The notes beneath the pieces are model-generated. The model saw nothing but the letters and a program-made list of their open reading frames with translations. It made no database searches and had not been told where the DNA came from. Shown here piece by piece: positions 1,010 to 15,044 of a stretch of 27,428 bases of DNA. The position numbers and the translations under genes are program-made. How positions within the stretch are numbered: position 1 is the first letter of the stretch; each line of letters starts with the position of its first letter. Origin of the DNA: a virus; the IMG/VR virus record IMGVR_UViG_3300028920_000226, positions 1 to 27,428 of that record; one strand, written 5' to 3'.

Positions 1010-1291
1010 ATGCCTGATAAAGATGATTTGAAATTTAAAGAAAAAATAAACCAGATTTATCTTCAAGGGAAGTCCTTACGTTGGATTGGTAGGCACCTTA
1101 AAATAAGCCATGAGTCAGTAAGACACTATCTTAATCCTGAAATTATAAGGAAAAATACCCTTGATGAAGAATATGTAGAAAAGGTTATCGGGATTTATAA
1201 AAAGACGAAATCTTTTCAAAAAACTGCTGATGAATTAAATGTTAAGAATAGGCAGAAGATTTTTCGCATTGTAAAATCTTATTACAAATAG
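1010..1291 (+). CDS. Double helix-turn-helix DNA-binding protein (93 aa)
   Basis: Residues 10-41 (KEKINQIYLQGKSLRWIGRH and following) match the resolvase/transposase-like HTH pattern: helix, GKSLRWIGRHL as second helix, KISHESVRHYL as recognition helix. Residues 55-91 look like a second degenerate HTH (AD(E/A)L turn followed by RQKIFRIVKSY). There is no catalytic domain. It sits directly upstream of the terminase genes and of a 30-bp near-palindrome at 1321-1350, so it could be a late regulator binding that site or an accessory packaging protein. The upstream frame is closed at 968 with no alternative start, so ATG 1010 stands, apparently leaderless. The HTH reading is fairly safe; the role is inference. 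Confidence 0.75.
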   Translation: MPDKDDLKFKEKINQIYLQGKSLRWIGRHLKISHESVRHYLNPEIIRKNTLDEEYVEKVIGIYKKTKSFQKTADELNVKNRQKIFRIVKSYYK

Positions 1292-1320
1292 CCCACCTTC
1301 TTTTTTTTATCATTTTATTT

Positions 1321-1350
1321 ATTTTAAATTTTTCTGCAAAAAATTTTAAA
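1321..1350 (+). repeat. 30-bp AT-rich near-palindrome, copy 1 (operator candidate)
   Basis: Two ATTTTAAA boxes (1321-1328, 1343-1350) lie 22 bp apart around a CTGC centre. The 30 bases match 6683-6712 at all positions except the central four. The right-hand box supplies the TTTAAA used as -35 of the terminase promoter, so a bound protein would compete with or contact RNA polymerase. Confidence 0.6.
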
Positions 1351-1373
1351 TTTTTTGTATTTTTATTTATATT
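1345..1373 (+). promoter_or_regulatory. Putative late promoter for the terminase operon
   Basis: TTTAAA (1345-1350), 17-bp spacer, TATATT (1368-1373), continuing as TATTAG. The -35 is poor compared with TTGACA, which suggests an activator or a phage-specific factor. The gene downstream has AAGGAG at 1383-1388 and ATG at 1394, so its transcript, unlike those from the two promoters above, has a normal leader. Confidence 0.5.
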
Positions 1374-1393
1374 ATTAGTTATAAGGAGATTAT

Positions 1394-1993
1394 ATGTATA
1401 GACAACGCCAAACAGAAAAAGTTGTTGATGTAAAAGAAGTCTGTGAAGTTGGTGATTTTCAGTTTACAAGTAAAGAAGAAGAGACTTTAACAAAGCTGTT
1501 TGATGTTCTGACTGCTCAACAGATTGAGGCTGCTCGTCTTGAATCAACAGGAGCTACTTTTCAGAATATCGGTGCGGCTATTGGAATTACACCAAAAACA
1601 ATTACTGCTTGGCACCAGAACAAAAATTATATAGAAGCACGTAATCTATTCCTTTTTATCATCAATAAGACCGGCCTTCAATTTCGATTAAATCTCCAAA
1701 AAATGATTCTTGCTCCTGTTTATGTTGAACTTACCCGTAGACTACATGATCCTGAAAATCCGATTAAAAACTATGATATAAAACAGCTTCTTGAGATTAT
1801 CCGGATTATCGGTAAGGAAATCAGGCTTGATACTGCCAGTGGTGGGTTCAATGAAGATGATGATGAATTGAAAGACCTTCAGGAGCGAAAAGAACGTAGA
1901 CAGAAATTCTCTCATGCAAAACAGGCCGAAGCAATAGATGATTTAAAATCAGATAAAAATATTATCAACTTTCCAAGCGGAACAGATGGTTAA
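1394..1993 (+). CDS. Terminase small subunit (TerS), 199 aa
   Basis: Recognises phage DNA and recruits TerL for packaging. Residues about 40-75 form an N-terminal HTH (LTAQQIEAARLE, then ATFQNIGAAIGITPKTITAWH), the usual fold of small terminase subunits; residues 85-150 are helical and suit the oligomerisation core; the C-terminal 45 residues are charged and probably contact TerL. The start has AAGGAG spaced 5 bases from ATG. The end overlaps TerL by 8 nt, the standard terS-terL arrangement and the main support for the call. Length is typical. It could be mistaken for a generic HTH protein, but position makes TerS by far the likeliest. Confidence 0.85.
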   Translation: MYRQRQTEKVVDVKEVCEVGDFQFTSKEEETLTKLFDVLTAQQIEAARLESTGATFQNIGAAIGITPKTITAWHQNKNYIEARNLFLFIINKTGLQFRLNLQKMILAPVYVELTRRLHDPENPIKNYDIKQLLEIIRIIGKEIRLDTASGGFNEDDDELKDLQERKERRQKFSHAKQAEAIDDLKSDKNIINFPSGTDG

Positions 1994-3947
1994 AAGATCA
2001 AGATGTCCTTTATCTGTGGAAGATTATTTAGATCTTCAGGGTAAAATTATAAGCCGTAGTCTGGGCAACAGACGTAAATTCGTAAAGGAACATTTTGTCC
2101 TTCATGATAATAAGTTTGTTGAAAAAAATCGTCTTGATGATATGATGGAGTCCAATAAGGCACCTCTTGGAATTGTTTCAAAAGAACCGTCTGAAGATAC
2201 AGAAGCTTATAAAAATTTCCTTGCAACAAATTTAGGTTTTATTCAGGAAACAACCAAAACGTTGGATTTGGAAGGAAATATATCTCCTACCAGATTCAGC
2301 GATATTGCTTCTTATTTAATTGATTCAGAAGATCCTTTTATATGGGCCAACAAAAGCCGACAATTTGGATTTTCTTTTAATATTGCTGCTCAGTCGTTAG
2401 CCAAGGCAATGTTAAAGAAAAAACACACATCCATATTTGTTTCATACAATGAAGAAGAATCAAAAGAAAAAATTGTTTTTGCTCGTGAACTTTATGAATC
2501 GATGCCAAGAAAATGGAAGTTGCAAAGAAAATTAAAATATGATAATAAAACGAGTCTGGTATTTGAAAAATCAGGAATGGATTCTTTTGAGACTCGTATT
2601 CTTTCATATCCGCAGCGCATCATTCGTGGAAAAGGCGGTGAACTGGATATACGCCTTGATGAAGCTGCTCACTGTATTCATATTCGTAAAATATATACCT
2701 CTGCTTTGCCTGCTCTTATCAGATCAAAAAGTTCAACAATATGGGTAGGAAGCACTCCTGCAGGAAAGGGAGGTCTTTTCTATGAGATTGGCGTAAATCA
2801 GGATAATGACTATGCTCCTTTCTTAAGGATGAAAATTCCTTGGTGGGTGATTCCTGAATTTTGTAGAAATGTTATACAAGCAAGAAAACAAGCATGGGGA
2901 ATGCATACTGATGAACGCATTCATCTATTTGCCAATGACCGTTTGAAACTGATTAGAAAATCAATGACTCTTGATGATTTCAGACAGGAGTATGAAATTG
3001 AATTTCTTGATGAAGCTTATTCTTATTTCCCTTGGGACTTGATAAATAGCTGTACTCCTATTTTTGATGTCGATGCAAAGGAAGTTCCTGAATACGATTC
3101 TCCTTCTGAAGAATTAACCCAAAACGATTCGTCAAAATCAGGTGTTGGTGTTGATCACTATACTGATTTTGACGAATTCATGTTTGCGATTGATTCCGGA
3201 ATAATTCAAGGTAAAATACTTGGTGGGTTTGACGTAGGCAGAACAACAGATGCTTCTGAGATTTATTATGTCGAAGAAGACGAAAATACACACCATCAAA
3301 TATGCCGTTGTAACATTACGTTTAAGAATGTAAAATTTCCAGAACAAAGACGACAGGTGTTAAGTCAGATAAATCGTCTTGGAAATAAACTTGTAAAATT
3401 CGGAATTGACGCAAACGGAATAGGAATGAATATATATGAAGATCTTAAAGAAGTTTCTTATGATGTTGTGGAACGCCTTGACTTTAATAGTAATTCCTGG
3501 AAAGAAGAAGCATGTAGACGATTTAAAATAAGGATGGAGAAAAAAGGAATTAGCTTTTCTACCAACAGGAATGTTTCATCTCAGATTCATTCAATTAAAA
3601 GAACACTGCTGCCTACAGGGATCTGGCGTTTTGATGTTGAAGCAAATCAGAAAAAACATCATGGCGATAAATTCTGGGCATTATTAGCGGCATCGGAAGT
3701 AGGGCATCCTCCCGTTGGAGAAACGAATACATATAGCTCCTTTAACGAACAACTGGTGAACGGCAGCAATAATAAAACAAATATGAATAAAAAGATTTCT
3801 GTTTATATTCCCCAAGTAGCATCGATTATGAAATTTAATCCTTATGGAGATTTTTCTCATGACATGCCGATGCTGTCTTTTAACAGAGTTAGCGAAATAA
3901 CTTCATTGATCCCAAATATGAAGAAAAAAGTAAGAAGAGAAATTTAA
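1986..3947 (+). CDS. Terminase large subunit (TerL), Mu gp28-like, 653 aa
   Basis: ATPase-nuclease motor that pumps DNA into the prohead and cuts it. The ATPase domain shows the divergent Walker A ANKSRQFGFS at 121-130 (KSRQxGxS type), Walker B IRLDEA with D225 and E226, and the coupling motif WVGSTPAG near 253-260. The RNase H-like nuclease domain shows GGFDVGRTTDASE with D416, a second acidic strand FGIDANGIG near 473, and HHGDKFW with D561. All key residues are present. The KSRQxG Walker A and the GFDxGR nuclease motif are those of the Mu-type large subunits. The ATG overlaps TerS by 8 nt. A polar insert near residues 365-400, between the two catalytic domains, is longer than usual. Confidence 0.95.
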   Translation: MVKRSRCPLSVEDYLDLQGKIISRSLGNRRKFVKEHFVLHDNKFVEKNRLDDMMESNKAPLGIVSKEPSEDTEAYKNFLATNLGFIQETTKTLDLEGNISPTRFSDIASYLIDSEDPFIWANKSRQFGFSFNIAAQSLAKAMLKKKHTSIFVSYNEEESKEKIVFARELYESMPRKWKLQRKLKYDNKTSLVFEKSGMDSFETRILSYPQRIIRGKGGELDIRLDEAAHCIHIRKIYTSALPALIRSKSSTIWVGSTPAGKGGLFYEIGVNQDNDYAPFLRMKIPWWVIPEFCRNVIQARKQAWGMHTDERIHLFANDRLKLIRKSMTLDDFRQEYEIEFLDEAYSYFPWDLINSCTPIFDVDAKEVPEYDSPSEELTQNDSSKSGVGVDHYTDFDEFMFAIDSGIIQGKILGGFDVGRTTDASEIYYVEEDENTHHQICRCNITFKNVKFPEQRRQVLSQINRLGNKLVKFGIDANGIGMNIYEDLKEVSYDVVERLDFNSNSWKEEACRRFKIRMEKKGISFSTNRNVSSQIHSIKRTLLPTGIWRFDVEANQKKHHGDKFWALLAASEVGHPPVGETNTYSSFNEQLVNGSNNKTNMNKKISVYIPQVASIMKFNPYGDFSHDMPMLSFNRVSEITSLIPNMKKKVRREI

Positions 3948-3965
3948 AATAATAAGGAGTACGCT

Positions 3966-4280
3966 ATGGCAGAAGATCGTGGTGTTGAACATATGGATTT
4001 TTCTGGATCCGGTACAAAAACGATTACTGTTGATTCTGACGAGTATATCAATTTTTATCAGTTGGATATTTCAATTGATAACGATACCACCATTGAAGTA
4101 ACGATTGGATCACAAATTGTTTTTCACGGAAATATGATTGCTACTGCAGCACCTGTTCAATTGTTTTTTATTGATTTTGGAAATGGACGAGGAACGGGAG
4201 TTAAAGGCGATAATTTAAATGTAGCTCTTGGAGATTCTGGACATGTCTTTGTCGTTTATAAAAAAATCAATGAAGAATAG
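3966..4280 (+). CDS. Small beta-rich protein, possible virion accessory protein (104 aa)
   Basis: Not recognised. The sequence alternates short hydrophobic strands and polar turns (TKTITVDS, YINFYQLDISID, TTIEVTIGSQIVF, VQLFFIDFGNG, HVFVVYKK), as expected of an all-beta sandwich; there is no signal peptide or membrane helix. AAGGAG lies 7 bases before ATG 3966. It sits 18 nt after TerL and 9 nt before the holin-like gene, in the same operon. Small beta-sandwich proteins in this position are often decoration, neck or fibre-anchoring parts, but that is context, not homology. Confidence 0.75.
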   Translation: MAEDRGVEHMDFSGSGTKTITVDSDEYINFYQLDISIDNDTTIEVTIGSQIVFHGNMIATAAPVQLFFIDFGNGRGTGVKGDNLNVALGDSGHVFVVYKKINEE

Positions 4281-4289
4281 GAGTCTAAT

Positions 4290-4658
4290 GTGTTTACTTT
4301 GACAAACGGAAGTCCTGAGATAGCTTCGCTATTTATTCAGTTGATGAAGGCTTTATTTGTCTATTTAATTCTTCCTACTTTAGTTCTTATTATTGCAGGC
4401 ATTACTCTTAATTTTTTCGCAAATAGAAGGAGCATGAAAAAATTAATATCAGTTCTTGAAAAAGAAATAGACAGCAAAGTTGATATTAAGAAATTTGATG
4501 CTTCTGTGGCCAGAATACATGAACAACGGGAAGAAGGGGATTCGAAGCTCCATCAGAGAGTGGACAAAGTAAAAGATTTTTTCAGTGAATCAATAAGCGA
4601 AGTAAAAGCGAATGTTTCATGGATTAAAGGATTCCTTGAAAAAAATGGAGCGATATGA
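4290..4658 (+). CDS. Holin candidate: N-terminal membrane helix plus coiled coil (122 aa)
   Basis: One strong hydrophobic segment at residues about 21-43 (ALFVYLILPTLVLIIAGITL) is followed by NRR and a long charged helix (50-120) with coiled-coil spacing. This N-in single-pass layout with a cytoplasmic coiled coil occurs in holin or holin-associated proteins, including the Mu gp25/DUF2730 type. The neighbour downstream is a cell-wall peptidase overlapping by 4 nt (ATGA), which supports a lysis role. The start is GTG 4290 with AGGAG at 4279-4283; an out-of-frame ATG at 4288 overlaps it and reads MCLL then stop. Which protein actually makes the lethal membrane lesion is not proven. Confidence 0.65.
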   Translation: MFTLTNGSPEIASLFIQLMKALFVYLILPTLVLIIAGITLNFFANRRSMKKLISVLEKEIDSKVDIKKFDASVARIHEQREEGDSKLHQRVDKVKDFFSESISEVKANVSWIKGFLEKNGAI

Positions 4659-5086
4659 AAGAAAAATATATTACAAAGAATAATTATTTTGGATGGTATG
4701 AATTTATTGTATCGGATGAACATCCTGATCTATGCAAAAAGTTTTTTTTAACGAATTATGATAAAATGAATATTTCGCTTGGCGTTGAAATGATTTTTGA
4801 TCCGTGGCGTTTAAGTCATAAGGAGAATTCTATTTTTATTTTATCAGGCAAAAGATCTCCAGAACTTAATGAAGCCGTGGGCGGTTCTGCAAATTCAGAT
4901 CATTTAACGGCAAATGCAATAGACATCAGAACAAAGGGGATGAGTGCAGAAGAATTATTTTGCTCTCTGATGCCTTATTATAATTATGTCAGGCAGCTTA
5001 TTCTTTACCCAGAAAAACAATTTGTGCATGTAAGTTGGAATATTCCCGGCAAAGTTTATAAAAACGAATGCTTTATTAAATATTAG
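4655..5086 (+). CDS. M15-type peptidase, probable endolysin (143 aa)
   Basis: Cuts peptide cross-links of peptidoglycan. The zinc site of the M15 family is visible: SDHLTANAIDI with H83 and D90, and FVHVSW with H125; the upstream SGKRSPELNEAVGGS (64-78) is the characteristic substrate-side R-S-P-x-LN-x-x-VGG-S motif. The usual catalytic acid just before the last His may be E120, slightly shifted from the common position. There is no signal peptide, so export would depend on the holin in front of it (4-nt overlap, GGAG inside the holin gene). Length fits single-domain M15A proteins. An alternative is a virion-associated peptidase, less likely given the holin partner. Confidence 0.85.
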   Translation: MKEKYITKNNYFGWYEFIVSDEHPDLCKKFFLTNYDKMNISLGVEMIFDPWRLSHKENSIFILSGKRSPELNEAVGGSANSDHLTANAIDIRTKGMSAEELFCSLMPYYNYVRQLILYPEKQFVHVSWNIPGKVYKNECFIKY

Positions 5087-5089
5087 AAC

Positions 5090-5109
5090 ATTTTAAAATA
5101 ATTTTAAAA
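5090..5109 (+). repeat. Tandem ATTTTAAAA boxes before the portal gene
   Basis: ATTTTAAAA occurs twice, at 5090-5098 and 5101-5109, 11 bp apart. ATTTTAAA is the half-box of the palindromes at 1321 and 6683, where the two boxes are 22 bp apart. No TATATT box follows, so this is a possible binding site but not a recognisable promoter. In AT-rich DNA this could be chance; the octamer also occurs inside the portal gene near 5228. Confidence 0.25.
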
Positions 5110-5119
5110 GGCTTTATCT

Positions 5120-6679
5120 ATGGCTGTAAAAAAATTAAGACAAATTGAAGATTCTGTTTATGATTCCATTCCTGAATATGTCAAGGACAGCTTTGACAGC
5201 CAGACCATAAAAAGGTTTGCTTCGGATATTTTAAATTCAAAAGAATCAAAACCTCCTCTTCCTGGAGAATGGACTACGGCAGGGAACCAGAGAATAACTG
5301 GTCCGGTCAGTCCATTTAACGGCAATATTGGTCTTGGTTTTTATCGTTCTTCAGATATTCCACTGACTGTTCTGGATATGATGAGAAGGGACAGTCAGGT
5401 AGCCTTGGGAATGGCTATTGTAAAATTTCCGATTACTCAATTAAGTTATACAATTAATTGTGATTCTCCTGTTATTAAAACATTCATTATAAAGAATCTT
5501 GAAAATAAATGGGCTGATCTGGTAAGAAATAGTTTGAAGTCATTGGATTTTGGATTTATTGGTTTTGAAAAAGTTTGGGACCGTAAAAGGATGGATCTTG
5601 ATCCTGGAAAGAATTTAAGGAAAATAAAAGATCGTAATTTTATTGTCCTTGATAAAGTGAAACCAATTCATCCAATGACATTGACTGTACGGGTTGATGA
5701 TAAAGGAAATTTTGCTGGAATTAATCAGGACAGGACCGGAGTTAAAAAAGCCTTATTGCCAAGAAATAAATCAATGATTATTACCAACGATGAAGAGTTT
5801 GGTAATTTTTTTGGCCGGTCAAGAATGATTTCTTCTTATGAAGCATGGTATTGGAAACAGATTTCAACACAATTCTTTTTAAGATATACGGAACGTTTTT
5901 CGATTCCTCCATACAAAGTCTATTATCCTCATGGCATTGAACGGTTTCCGAATGGACAGCAGATAGATCGTTCTGAAATTGCAATGAAGATGGCTAATTC
6001 TGTTTCGTCATACGGAAACATAGTTATTCCTTCAATCAGGGATAAAGACACAGGCCATTTACTTTGGGATTTAGAATCAATTGATCAGGGAAAATTAAAT
6101 ATAAAACCACAGGATATTGTTGGCTTCTGGGATCTTTTAATATTGCGTGGTTTATTGATTCCCGATAAAGCAACGTTAAGTGCAATGGATGAAGAAACCG
6201 GCAGTCAGGTTTATTTATCTACTTTAGCTGCTATAGTAAAACAAATTGAAGTAAAGGTAAATACGGAGATAATTAAACCGCTTGTTGAATGGAATTTTAG
6301 TAAAGAAGAACGTGCAGATTGCAGACTTAATATTGATGATATTGATTTTAAGAAACGTTCTGAGATGAGAAAATTAATGAGTAAAATATTGGATCTGTCT
6401 TCAACTTATGTAAAAAATCTTCATGCTTTTCCATTTAAGAAATTTCCTGATATTTCTAAAATTTTGGATACATTGGATGTTCCGCAGCAGGAAGCCAATG
6501 TTTATGTTCCGAAAAAATTTGATATGGACGGAAAAGAATTAAAGGATGAAGAAGTTGAATTGCCAAAGAAAACAACAGGTCCGGATAAAGGAGAAAAAAC
6601 TTCTGGAAATAAAGCACGTGAAGGAAAAGATGGGGATCCAAAAGACGATGATAAAATAGATGCAAAGGTAACATCTTAA
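5120..6679 (+). CDS. Portal protein, DUF935/Mu gp29-like (519 aa)
   Basis: Forms the dodecameric vertex through which DNA passes. Features of the DUF935 portal family: an early aromatic/proline segment, the phrase LTVLDMMRRDSQVALGM (80-97 region), SLKSLDFGFIGFEKVWD corresponding to the conserved (Y)GFsv(f)EkvW motif, RNFIVLDKVKPIHP, FFGRSRMISSYEAWYWK and the long helix after DEETGSQVYLSTLAA that is typical of the clip/stem part. Length is normal for the family. The C-terminal 50 residues are Lys/Asp/Gly-rich and probably disordered. Position between TerL and the protease supports the call. Only a weak AAGG lies upstream of ATG 5120. Confidence 0.88.
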   Translation: MAVKKLRQIEDSVYDSIPEYVKDSFDSQTIKRFASDILNSKESKPPLPGEWTTAGNQRITGPVSPFNGNIGLGFYRSSDIPLTVLDMMRRDSQVALGMAIVKFPITQLSYTINCDSPVIKTFIIKNLENKWADLVRNSLKSLDFGFIGFEKVWDRKRMDLDPGKNLRKIKDRNFIVLDKVKPIHPMTLTVRVDDKGNFAGINQDRTGVKKALLPRNKSMIITNDEEFGNFFGRSRMISSYEAWYWKQISTQFFLRYTERFSIPPYKVYYPHGIERFPNGQQIDRSEIAMKMANSVSSYGNIVIPSIRDKDTGHLLWDLESIDQGKLNIKPQDIVGFWDLLILRGLLIPDKATLSAMDEETGSQVYLSTLAAIVKQIEVKVNTEIIKPLVEWNFSKEERADCRLNIDDIDFKKRSEMRKLMSKILDLSSTYVKNLHAFPFKKFPDISKILDTLDVPQQEANVYVPKKFDMDGKELKDEEVELPKKTTGPDKGEKTSGNKAREGKDGDPKDDDKIDAKVTS

Positions 6680-6682
6680 TTA

Positions 6683-6712
6683 ATTTTAAATTTTTTGGTA
6701 AAAAATTTTAAA
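6683..6712 (+). repeat. 30-bp AT-rich near-palindrome, copy 2 (operator candidate)
   Basis: Same element as 1321-1350: ATTTTAAA boxes at 6683-6690 and 6705-6712, centre TGGT instead of CTGC, the other 26 bases identical. The arms around GGT pair over about 15 bases with one mismatch. As RNA it would be a weak AU hairpin, so a protein site is more likely than a terminator, though it also lies 3 bases after the portal stop. Confidence 0.6.
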
Positions 6713-6735
6713 TTTCTTATAAAACAATTTATATT
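6707..6735 (+). promoter_or_regulatory. Putative late promoter for the head operon
   Basis: TTTAAA (6707-6712), 17-bp spacer, TATATT (6730-6735), continuing as AATAG. Spacing and flank are the same as in the terminase promoter, including the overlapping palindrome. AGGAG (6742-6746) then precedes ATG 6754. Confidence 0.5.
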
Positions 6736-6753
6736 AATAGATAGGAGTGCTTT

Positions 6754-8784
6754 ATGGAGAACGAAGAAAATAAAGAATTAGCCGATAAGAGATCAAAAGA
6801 TGAAAAAGTTGAAAGTTGTGTTCTACAATTAAAAAGTCAGGGGTTCTCTAAACAAAGTGCTTTTAAAATTTGTAACTCCGCAATTAAAGGCAAAAAGGCC
6901 AGCGAGGGAGATTTAATGGAATCAGTAAAATTGAATGAAATAGAAAAACAAACAGCTATTAATGATTTTTCGAACATTTTCAAAATGACTGGATTAGAAG
7001 ATTCCGATGCATTAAAATTTTCCTCAGTTCTTTTATCAAAAATTTCAAAACCACGATACGAAACTCTTTCCAAAACATTTAAAGACGATAAAAACCTGAA
7101 ATCATATATTGGTAAAACCGATGCATCTGGGAATAATGGCCATACCCATAATTATACAATCATGTTTGTTAATTTCGGTGAACAGCTTGTTGGTGTTACC
7201 ACTTCCACCAGCAAAGGTACTTCTCATGCCCATATGATCGACATTGAATTGGACAATAAAATTACAACTATGACAGCGGCAACAAATATAGAAGCGTCTG
7301 ATTCAGGTGCAGATGATGCAGATTATCATCGACATATGTTTTCTGCTAATCTGGAAGAAATAAGAAATACGCTTCCTTCTATATACGTAAGGAATAAATA
7401 TTATTCAGAAGATAAAGCTGAATCCGATAAAGCAGATAAAAAGAAAAAGAATTTTACTGAAAAACTTGTTTATGGAGAAAAGGAGATAGGTTTTTCAAAT
7501 CAGCGTCAGGCAGAAGCATTGATTTCAAAAGTGTTTCAGTATTCAGAGAAACCTGAATGGTTTGATGGTGAACTGGATGACCTGAAATTAGATGTTTATA
7601 ACTTGGTTTATGATTTTTATAGCGATTCTATGCTCTTTGATGATATGGAAATTGCTGAGTTCGCTTTAAATTCAGATAAAATTCCTGATGAGAGAAAGAC
7701 GAGAAGGTTTGGCGTTGTTCGTGGTGTTCCTGATGGAACTGGTCCTCACGGAAGAGGAGATGGGCCAGGAAAAGGAAGAGGTGATGGTACTGGTTTAGAA
7801 ACAAAAAATGCAGATAAAAAAGTTGATCCAAAAGCAAAAGTACGGAATCGTCCTACTGCTATTCTTCCTCACAATAGTTCTAAAGTAAAAGACAATAAAG
7901 ATCATTTTCCTCAACAAACCGCGAGTCAGGCAAGAAATGCGCTTGCAAGAGTAGCTCAATACAAAAAAGTTCCTTCATGGTTTAAAGGATCTTTGGAAGA
8001 ATTGAAAAAAATAGTCAGAAATGCAGTGAAGAAAAAATATCCTACTATTAAAGTTACAATGAGTGAAATGTATGCACTTCGTTTTAAAGACGAAGGGAAT
8101 GCTTTTTTCATTAATTGTTTTACTGACAGAGAAGAATGTGCGAAGGATGACGCTTTCATTTATAGAAAAGATTGTCCTGAATATGATATTGATCTGGTAA
8201 AGTTTACCGAAGAAGAAGGAAATACGAAATTCAGTGAATTGGGAAGTTTTGTTTTTTTTGACAGTAAATCAAAAGGCAAAATAAAATCATCTGGAGAAAT
8301 AAAACTTTCTGAAAAAGATTCTCAAGGCAATTTGAAAATTGAAATGCTACGCACTGGTCATTTTACTCATCCGGAATATGGCCAATTCAGAATTACTTCT
8401 GATATGTTAAATTCAATTATTAAGAATTTCAATGATCGTGTTCTGGATAGGGATGTTTCTTTTGATTTTAATCATGAACCGGATCTTCCTGCTGCAGCAT
8501 GGTGTAAGAAATTAAGTCTTGACCGGAGAGATTTTAAAGGCAACATGCAGGATGTATTGATTGGCTATGTAAAGCCAACTCCCAGAGGAGAAGAAGCCAT
8601 TAAGAATGGTGATTATAAATATTTTTCGTCTGAATACGATGATAATTTTGTAGATAAAGAAACGAATCATGATTATGGCATTACCTTAAAAGGAGGAGGC
8701 TTAACAAATAGACCTTGGATACCTGGATTAAAACCAATAACTCTATCTGAAAAAAGAAATCAGATGGGATTTATAAAATCATAA
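6754..8784 (+). CDS. Multidomain prohead protease, Mu I-type C-terminal domain (676 aa)
   Basis: The C-terminal domain (about 528-670) matches Mu gpI-like prohead proteases: RTGHFTHPEYGQFRIT (533-548), FDFNHE (570-575), then a YFSSEY strand and a GGGLTNRPWIP segment. It should cut scaffold and itself during head maturation. Ahead of it are 500 residues unusual for this family: VESCVLQLKSQGFSKQSAF (a CVxxLxxQG motif, about 20-38); a His-rich domain with GHTH (129-132), SHAH (157-160) and YHRH (191-194); two copies of a helical module at about 246-290 and 385-430; and between them a glycine linker, DGTGPHGRGDGPGKGRGDG (327-345). The start has AGGAG 7 bases upstream. Protease call is firm; roles of the N-terminal parts are unknown. 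Confidence 0.85.
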   Translation: MENEENKELADKRSKDEKVESCVLQLKSQGFSKQSAFKICNSAIKGKKASEGDLMESVKLNEIEKQTAINDFSNIFKMTGLEDSDALKFSSVLLSKISKPRYETLSKTFKDDKNLKSYIGKTDASGNNGHTHNYTIMFVNFGEQLVGVTTSTSKGTSHAHMIDIELDNKITTMTAATNIEASDSGADDADYHRHMFSANLEEIRNTLPSIYVRNKYYSEDKAESDKADKKKKNFTEKLVYGEKEIGFSNQRQAEALISKVFQYSEKPEWFDGELDDLKLDVYNLVYDFYSDSMLFDDMEIAEFALNSDKIPDERKTRRFGVVRGVPDGTGPHGRGDGPGKGRGDGTGLETKNADKKVDPKAKVRNRPTAILPHNSSKVKDNKDHFPQQTASQARNALARVAQYKKVPSWFKGSLEELKKIVRNAVKKKYPTIKVTMSEMYALRFKDEGNAFFINCFTDREECAKDDAFIYRKDCPEYDIDLVKFTEEEGNTKFSELGSFVFFDSKSKGKIKSSGEIKLSEKDSQGNLKIEMLRTGHFTHPEYGQFRITSDMLNSIIKNFNDRVLDRDVSFDFNHEPDLPAAAWCKKLSLDRRDFKGNMQDVLIGYVKPTPRGEEAIKNGDYKYFSSEYDDNFVDKETNHDYGITLKGGGLTNRPWIPGLKPITLSEKRNQMGFIKS

Positions 8785-10078: not shown

Positions 10079-11071
10079 ATGCCTAAAACAATTACCCGCA
10101 AATTTGCGGATCCTTCCATTGTCGATAGTCAGACCGTATTGACTCTTGACCAATTCTTAACGGATGTTGTGGTTGGATACCGTGATAACACTTATGTCAT
10201 GGATAATCTGCTTCCGGAAAAGCCGGTACGGAAAGATTCAGACAAGATTCGTGTTGTGAACCCAGAAGGCTGGTTTAAAGCTGCTGAAAGGCGTGCTGAA
10301 ACCGCACTGCCTGAACAGGCTGGAGTCCAGTATTCTGAAGACACCTATTCGACTGACGAGTTTGCCCTGGAAGGTTGGGTTTCGGACGATGCGCTCCGGA
10401 ATGCAATTGAGCAGATCGATCCTCTTTCTGACGAAGCGAAGTTTCTGTCGGAAAAGATTATGCTCACCCAGGAAATCGCAAACATTAATGAGATTTTTTC
10501 TGCATCGAAAACTGCAGGGGCAACTCATTATGATATTCTTGGTGCAGCCTACAAGTGGAATGGTGGTGCTTCTGCTGCTCCGCTTGATGATATTTCAAAG
10601 GCCATCAAGAAAATCGTCAGCCGTACAGGAAAACGTCCCAACATCGTTTCTCTTTCAACCGACTCTTACGAAGCATTTGTAAACAACACTCAGATCCGTG
10701 ATATTCTGAAGAATACCACGACTGCTGTTGTTGATTCCATGCAGCCTGTAAAGGCTATCCGTGGAATGCGTCTGCAGCTTGCCGATGCTATCGTGAACGC
10801 CGGGACTCTTGATACTGCCGATATGAAGAATATCCAGTACGATGTGGTCACAACGACTCAGTTTTTTGATACAGTGATTGTGTCCTATGTTGAGAAGGGC
10901 AACCCTCTCACTCTTGGTCATAATTTTGTATCGCTTCCTTTTGAGGTTTTCCGGATCCGTGGTTCGGAGGGTGCTCGCAGGAAGGCAACTTTGGTGTATG
11001 TATCCAAGAAGTTCGGCCCGAAAGTGACGAACATTGGTGCTTCCCATATTGTTGCGAAGGTACTTGGGTAG
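10079..11071 (+). CDS. Major capsid protein, HK97 fold (330 aa)
   Basis: The shell subunit. Length, place after scaffold and decoration genes, and the sequence layout fit: an N-terminal arm, an early helix/strand region (LDQFLTDVVVGYRDNTYVMD), the long spine-like helix SDEAKFLSEKIMLTQEIANI (137-156 region), the A-domain stretch RPNIVSLSTDSYEAFVNN and the strand-rich end with the late P-domain phrase VEKGNPLTLG. No N-terminal delta domain is obvious, agreeing with a separate scaffold. AGGAGG precedes ATG 10079. Codons are among the most GC-rich of the window, and the gene is followed immediately by a strong terminator hairpin, both in line with a very abundant product. Confidence 0.9.
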   Translation: MPKTITRKFADPSIVDSQTVLTLDQFLTDVVVGYRDNTYVMDNLLPEKPVRKDSDKIRVVNPEGWFKAAERRAETALPEQAGVQYSEDTYSTDEFALEGWVSDDALRNAIEQIDPLSDEAKFLSEKIMLTQEIANINEIFSASKTAGATHYDILGAAYKWNGGASAAPLDDISKAIKKIVSRTGKRPNIVSLSTDSYEAFVNNTQIRDILKNTTTAVVDSMQPVKAIRGMRLQLADAIVNAGTLDTADMKNIQYDVVTTTQFFDTVIVSYVEKGNPLTLGHNFVSLPFEVFRIRGSEGARRKATLVYVSKKFGPKVTNIGASHIVAKVLG

Positions 11072-11096
11072 TTTTGTTTCGCATTAGGATGATGAG

Positions 11097-11130
11097 AAAG
11101 GGAGGGAGAAATTTCTCTCTCCCTTTTTTT
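11097..11130 (+). terminator. Rho-independent terminator after the capsid gene
   Basis: AAAGGGAGGGAGAAA pairs with TTTCTCTCTCCCTTT (one G-U pair), followed by a run of T up to 11130. This is the clearest intrinsic terminator in the window. Because neck and tail genes follow with no convincing promoter between, it probably works as a partial terminator that makes capsid mRNA more abundant than tail mRNA. Confidence 0.85.
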
Positions 11131-15009: not shown

Positions 15010-15044
15010 GGGGATGGTCTGCTTCCCTACGGACCATCCCCTTT
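15010..15044 (+). terminator. Terminator-like hairpin after the tail tube gene
   Basis: GGGGATGGTC (15010-15019) pairs perfectly with GACCATCCCC (15032-15041) around a 12-base loop, followed only by TTT and then AATAATAAT. The 10-bp GC-rich stem is stable, but the T run is short, so termination is probably partial. It is placed directly after a highly expressed gene, like the hairpin after the capsid gene. Confidence 0.65.

Follow-up and report, generated by a model that had tools for sequence, protein, structure and literature searches.

The DNA considered here is a single virus record of 27,428 bases (IMG/VR record IMGVR_UViG_3300028920_000226), analysed whole and referred to below as the window; the record may itself be a fragment. 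Along it lie, in order, a group of small left-end genes, the terminase genes terS and terL, a lysis gene, and genes for portal, protease, capsid and tail proteins. A short element occurs twice in this arrangement, on each occasion in an intergenic gap of 85-86% A+T: copy 1 is found ~40 bp upstream of terS, and copy 2 lies 5 kb away, upstream of the head operon, the first gene of which encodes a protease resembling the I protein of phage Mu. The terS product resembles small terminase subunits across residues 33-84, whilst the protease is 44% identical to the product of positions 2500-4308 in the closest relative that we found, L037/L038 (13,562 bases; hereafter L038). That the genes behind both copies are late is taken from annotation.

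Each copy is built around the doublet ATTTTAAA-N14-ATTTTAAA, which is confined in the window to two places, exactly 1321-1350 and 6683-6712. A first-pass annotation had described the two as 30-bp palindromes matching at 26 of 30 bases. Their near-identity stands, but the true figure is 27 of 30, the central tetranucleotides CTGC and TGGT having a G in common; likewise, each is an inverted repeat overall but, interrupted by a T-T mismatch, not a perfect one, and is better described as two occurrences of a 13-bp dyad, AAATTTNAAATTT (Table 1). The paired boxes reported to lie 22 bp apart are there in both copies, in the form of dyad centres with that separation, as is the proposed promoter of TTTAAA, a 17-bp spacer and TATATT. 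The second dyad of each copy overlaps the putative -35 hexamer and its distance to TATATT is identical in the two; the same site, at one set distance to the -10 hexamer, precedes two operons annotated as late. Dyad centres are numbered from a start site assumed to lie seven bases past TATATT.

Table 1. Dyads, putative promoters and adjoining genes in the window
Feature	Position	Strand	Description
Copy 1, dyad 1	1319-1331	+	TTATTTTAAATTT, core ATTTTAAATTT, two outer mismatches; centre ~-55
Copy 1, dyad 2	1341-1353	+	AAATTTTAAATTT, exact; centre ~-33; spans putative -35 TTTAAA (1345-1350)
Putative sigma70-type promoter of terS-terL operon	1345-1373	+	Consensus match only; TATATT 1368-1373; start expected ~1380
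Copy 2, dyad 1	6681-6693	+	TAATTTTAAATTT, one mismatch; centre ~-55
Copy 2, dyad 2	6703-6715	+	AAATTTTAAATTT, exact; centre ~-33; spans putative -35 TTTAAA (6707-6712)
Putative head-operon promoter	6707-6735	+	Consensus match; TATATT 6730-6735; start expected ~6742
Candidate regulator	1010-1291	+	93-amino-acid basic protein, isoelectric point (pI) 9.8, two predicted helix-turn-helix (HTH) domains; ends ~30 bp 5' of copy 1
Small terminase subunit (terS)	1394-1993	+	First gene after copy 1; phrog_7344, E 9e-7
Mu I-like head maturation protease	6754-8784	+	First gene after copy 2; PF10123, phrog_328

This arrangement is not expected by chance. In 100 dinucleotide shuffles of the window the doublet was expected 0.00 times, against the two occurrences observed. 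When the gaps themselves were shuffled 20,000 times with dinucleotides preserved, the best doublet of gap 1292-1393 was never equalled and that of gap 6680-6753 was equalled in a fraction of 0.00005, and a match between the gaps as good as that seen, over 30 bp or 55 bp, did not arise in 800-1500 simulations. By contrast, promoter hexamers alone are at background (46 promoter-like sites in the window vs 48.3 expected), as is ATTTTAAA alone (15 vs 10.3 expected). The distinctive signal is the spaced doublet at its fixed distance to the -10 hexamer, rather than the hexamers or the octamer.

The element is conserved at the orthologous place in L038, as the first-pass annotation had proposed should be checked in relatives. 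The portal, protease, capsid and tube proteins of this phage are 47, 44, 49 and 61% identical to those of the window, and its portal-protease gap (2377-2499), the counterpart of that holding copy 2, contains three exact dyads: AAATTTTAAATTT at 2386, AAATTTCAAATTT at 2428 and AAATTTGAAATTT at 2449. These are the sole exact dyads on the 13.6-kb contig, where 0.05-0.1 would be expected, and neither three dyads nor a perfect doublet was ever obtained by shuffling the gap. The dyads at 2428 and 2449 lie 21 bp apart, with TTTATATT beyond them at the corresponding distance, the interval to TATATT equalling that in the window to within 1 bp, whilst the dyad at 2386 is another 42 bp upstream. Dyad centres fall at -34, -55 and -97 in L038 and at -33 and -55 in the window copies, with steps of 22, 21 and 42 bp that are all near whole helical turns, and the central base of the dyad differs among sites (T, C or G), as an odd-length dyad predicts. 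Because the flanking proteins are only 44-61% identical, conservation of the dyads does not simply reflect recent ancestry. When 1.64 Mb of loci were searched for a pair of dyads together with TATATT, the three true sites ranked among the five best; the remaining two were low-complexity or heptamer repeats.

A check for more copies in the genome, also proposed earlier, gave none beyond these two in the 27-kb record, itself possibly a fragment. Nor do we retain as a member of the element the related pair of boxes that had been suggested before the portal gene, at 5090-5109: it has no exact dyad, it has no -10 hexamer at the right distance as judged by reading the sequence, and the octamer is at background. 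The pre-portal gap of the relative is six bases long (AATTTT). An exact 33-bp scan of viral contigs gave no match outside the record, and none of 30 loci with more distant terminases contains a duplicated intergenic element at 25 of 30 bases. Scanning viral contigs for the doublet returned 13 stretches, with the site common only to the contig of L038 and most of the others proving to be (AAATTTG/C)n heptamer repeats of other phages; a looser scan for a single dyad with TTTATATT returned at least 120 stretches and was uninformative, as were the dyads of another close relative, L173 (22 matches at two or fewer mismatches vs 20 for a control pattern). Portal and tube alignments found zero homologues in the cellular genome contigs scanned, and a literature text search for AAATTTNAAATTT found no paper. 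Arrays of the heptamers AAATTTG and AAATTTC, several of them intergenic, are a feature of unrelated and often G+C-rich phage contigs (L041-L045, L047, L050 and L052).

We consider it probable (roughly 0.68) that one dimeric regulator uses the element as its operator at two late promoters of the sigma70 type, those of the packaging and head operons. The earlier suggestion of a shared late operator, as opposed to random A+T-rich sequence, is backed by the within-gap shuffles and by the conserved head-operon site in the relative. Odd-length dyads whose central base is free, lying in phase with one another and tied to the -10 hexamer, are the footprint expected where two dimers occupy a promoter, from which we infer protein binding, and the presence of the same site before packaging and head genes, kept in a distant relative, means that a single regulator probably serves the late genes. 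The two AAATTTNAAATTT dyads, two helical turns apart on one face of the DNA at about -55 and -33, would accommodate two dimers side by side, with the downstream dimer replacing or overlying a weak -35 box, and, once bound, the regulator would govern how active the host RNA polymerase is at the packaging and head promoters jointly. Late promoters in known phages are mostly activated, and it is this established knowledge, not a result obtained here, that leads us to favour a phage-encoded activator as the probable regulator; a repressor at the dyad covering the -35 is equally conceivable and could be at work, though we hold it less probable.

By its position only, the protein encoded at 1010-1291 is the leading candidate for the regulator, its link to the operator being one that we infer. 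It would be expressed from its own putative promoter (TTGTAA-17-TATATT, 975-1003), which has no dyads; this promoter is close to the ATG at 1010 and the transcript might be leaderless. A single-sequence structural model contains two three-helix HTH units (predicted local distance difference test score, pLDDT, 78), and there are weak matches to HTH_38 and, across residues 9-90, to Cbp1. The latter scores 37.2 bits against a curated cut-off of 140, and we reject the identification as a Cbp1 CRISPR-repeat-binding protein in favour of a general tandem-HTH likeness. Comparison of the fold with PDB gave no match at E 0.001, the best being the bipartite DNA-binding domain of Tc3 transposase (E 0.083), whilst three PDB sequence matches, all to FeoB (residues 7-49, E 0.028-0.036), are above the default limit and were not counted as homology. 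No RinA, ArpU or Ltr family was among the matches in Pfam, NCBIfam and PHROGs, and neither the candidate nor terS gave a tblastn hit among the collected loci. There was no protein of the Mor/C type among the early-side proteins scanned, in a record that may be a fragment and outside which one could lie. A more specific proposal, in which this 93-amino-acid tandem-HTH protein without known relatives would be a new kind of late activator, binding two AAATTTNAAATTT dyads 21-22 bp apart such that the downstream dimer replaces the -35 contact and co-ordinates the packaging and head operons, is tentative and, with all its parts taken together, somewhat unlikely.

Several observations weigh against the operator reading. 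The element is almost pure A+T. L038 is the one relative that spans the site, L173 beginning inside the protease gene; the counterpart of copy 1 lies outside the L038 contig, which also lacks the region that would carry a homologue of the candidate regulator, and no relative of the candidate was detected among annotated phages. As sigma70 hexamers, TATATT and TTTAAA or TTGAAA are passable, and the promoters could therefore function unaided by an activator. The inner part of the element, moreover, fits the Escherichia coli UP-element consensus, AAAWWTWTTTTNNNAAA (PMC2412878), at 12 of 14 positions and in the correct register: within the zone tested (~-59 to -38), each of the three sites has AAATTTTT-NNN-AAAAAA at ~-57 to -38. 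It could be, then, that the C-terminal domains of the RNA polymerase alpha subunit (alpha-CTD) grip the minor groove of the T-tract and A-tract, making these two strong constitutive promoters with no phage regulator. Such matches are unremarkable for sequence of this composition (P 0.12-0.21), however, and a UP element would account neither for the outer half-site of dyad 1 nor for the invariant AAATTT extending beyond the -35 to ~-27, nor again for the exact third dyad of L038 at -97, 42 bp upstream. We think this explanation unlikely, but given the resemblance of the inner part to the consensus, alpha-CTD contact may contribute.

The entire element being an inverted repeat, with an RNA stem of -10.6 kcal/mol in L038, it might also form a hairpin (a terminator, attenuator or processing site) in read-through transcripts from upstream genes. 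Both window copies, however, carry the T-T mismatch at the same place, giving stems of only -2.2 and -3.6 kcal/mol, whilst their downstream dyads are exact; a mismatch that weakens the RNA stem yet keeps each dyad core symmetric argues against a hairpin. There is no G+C stem and a terminator scan made no call, the third L038 dyad is solitary, and genuine G+C-rich stem-loops of ~-21 to -25 kcal/mol are found elsewhere in these phages, and we regard a hairpin as very unlikely. Slighter still is the prospect of a packaging site (pac or cos) recognised by the small terminase subunit: the position of copy 1 just before a gene whose product matches such subunits would suit it, but copy 2 sits 5 kb off before the head operon, the L038 counterpart is of copy 2, and packaging would have no need of a fixed distance to a -10 hexamer in both copies. 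Chance likeness between A/T-rich intergenic sequences is just as improbable, for despite the composition of the window gaps, shuffles within gaps that keep dinucleotides almost never yield the doublet, and do so alike for three gaps, by which chance is already contradicted.

Other features of the locus are also shared between these phages. A lysis gene lies immediately 5' of the portal gene in both the window (4290-5086) and L038 (199-771), the enzymes being unlike (an M15-type endolysin and an amidase-type enzyme, respectively). Just past the major capsid gene of the window is a strong stem-loop with a T run (11094-11129), which is found also in L038 (~6637-6668) and L173 (~3787-3821) with differing stem sequences (-21.5 to -23.6 kcal/mol); in the three relatives this is probably a conserved terminator or attenuator. 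A second strong stem-loop, at 15010-15041, lies 3' of the tail-tube-like gene (-22.9 to -25.0 kcal/mol across the three phages), its counterparts in L038 (~10563-10597) and L173 (~7514-7557) keeping the position with differing sequences; the T run is not clear in the window or L038.

Whilst these results leave the overall view of late control in phages as it was, they supply an uncultivated phage lineage with a switch for late transcription that can be put to the test, consisting of a defined operator, a pair of target promoters and a single candidate regulator, and a short intergenic element of near-pure A+T has become recognisable as regulatory by way of a relative with proteins about half identical. 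In the late promoters of P2, P4 and 186, the site for the zinc-binding activators Ogr and Delta lies near -55, and a dyad centred at about this position is likewise common to the putative late promoters here; the sequence is a different one, and the P2, P4 and 186 promoters are not known to have a second site over the -35. As in phage Mu, what would be one regulator site is repeated before separate late operons, at or beside the -35. The C site of Mu differs in sequence from the dyads described here, and the promoters here differ in having two spaced dyads each. The Mu late promoters Plys, PI, PP and Pmom are activated by C (PMC4461284), and just as these include lys and I, one promoter here is followed by a gene for an I-like protease, itself located behind a Mu-type portal gene. 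Mor of Mu provides a precedent for an activator site replacing the -35; its site consists of one inverted repeat element of 16 bp, at -43.5 (PMC4390567).

Repeated sites are known from TP901-1 (Alt, -76 to -32) and phi13 (Ltr, -107 to -42) (PMC13123087), and dyads at -97, -55 and -33 occupy the same zone. As with RinA, Ltr and Alt, the gene for a small basic protein is found directly 5' of a putative late promoter, here encoding 93 amino acids (pI 9.8), Ltrs being ~130 amino acids in length (PMC13123087). The sites here, in contrast to the direct repeats of these systems of Gram-positive phages, are dyads; the operator also recurs before the head operon, and in the libraries scanned the candidate matches none of these families in sequence. 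To the UP element there is likeness in the sequence and register of the inner part, but not in the outer half-sites or the third dyad. Since site, spacing and candidate protein all differ, we see a functional likeness to the Mu and Ltr/RinA/Alt systems and do not claim membership of them: the principle is known from other phages, whilst this site and its regulator have not been described before.
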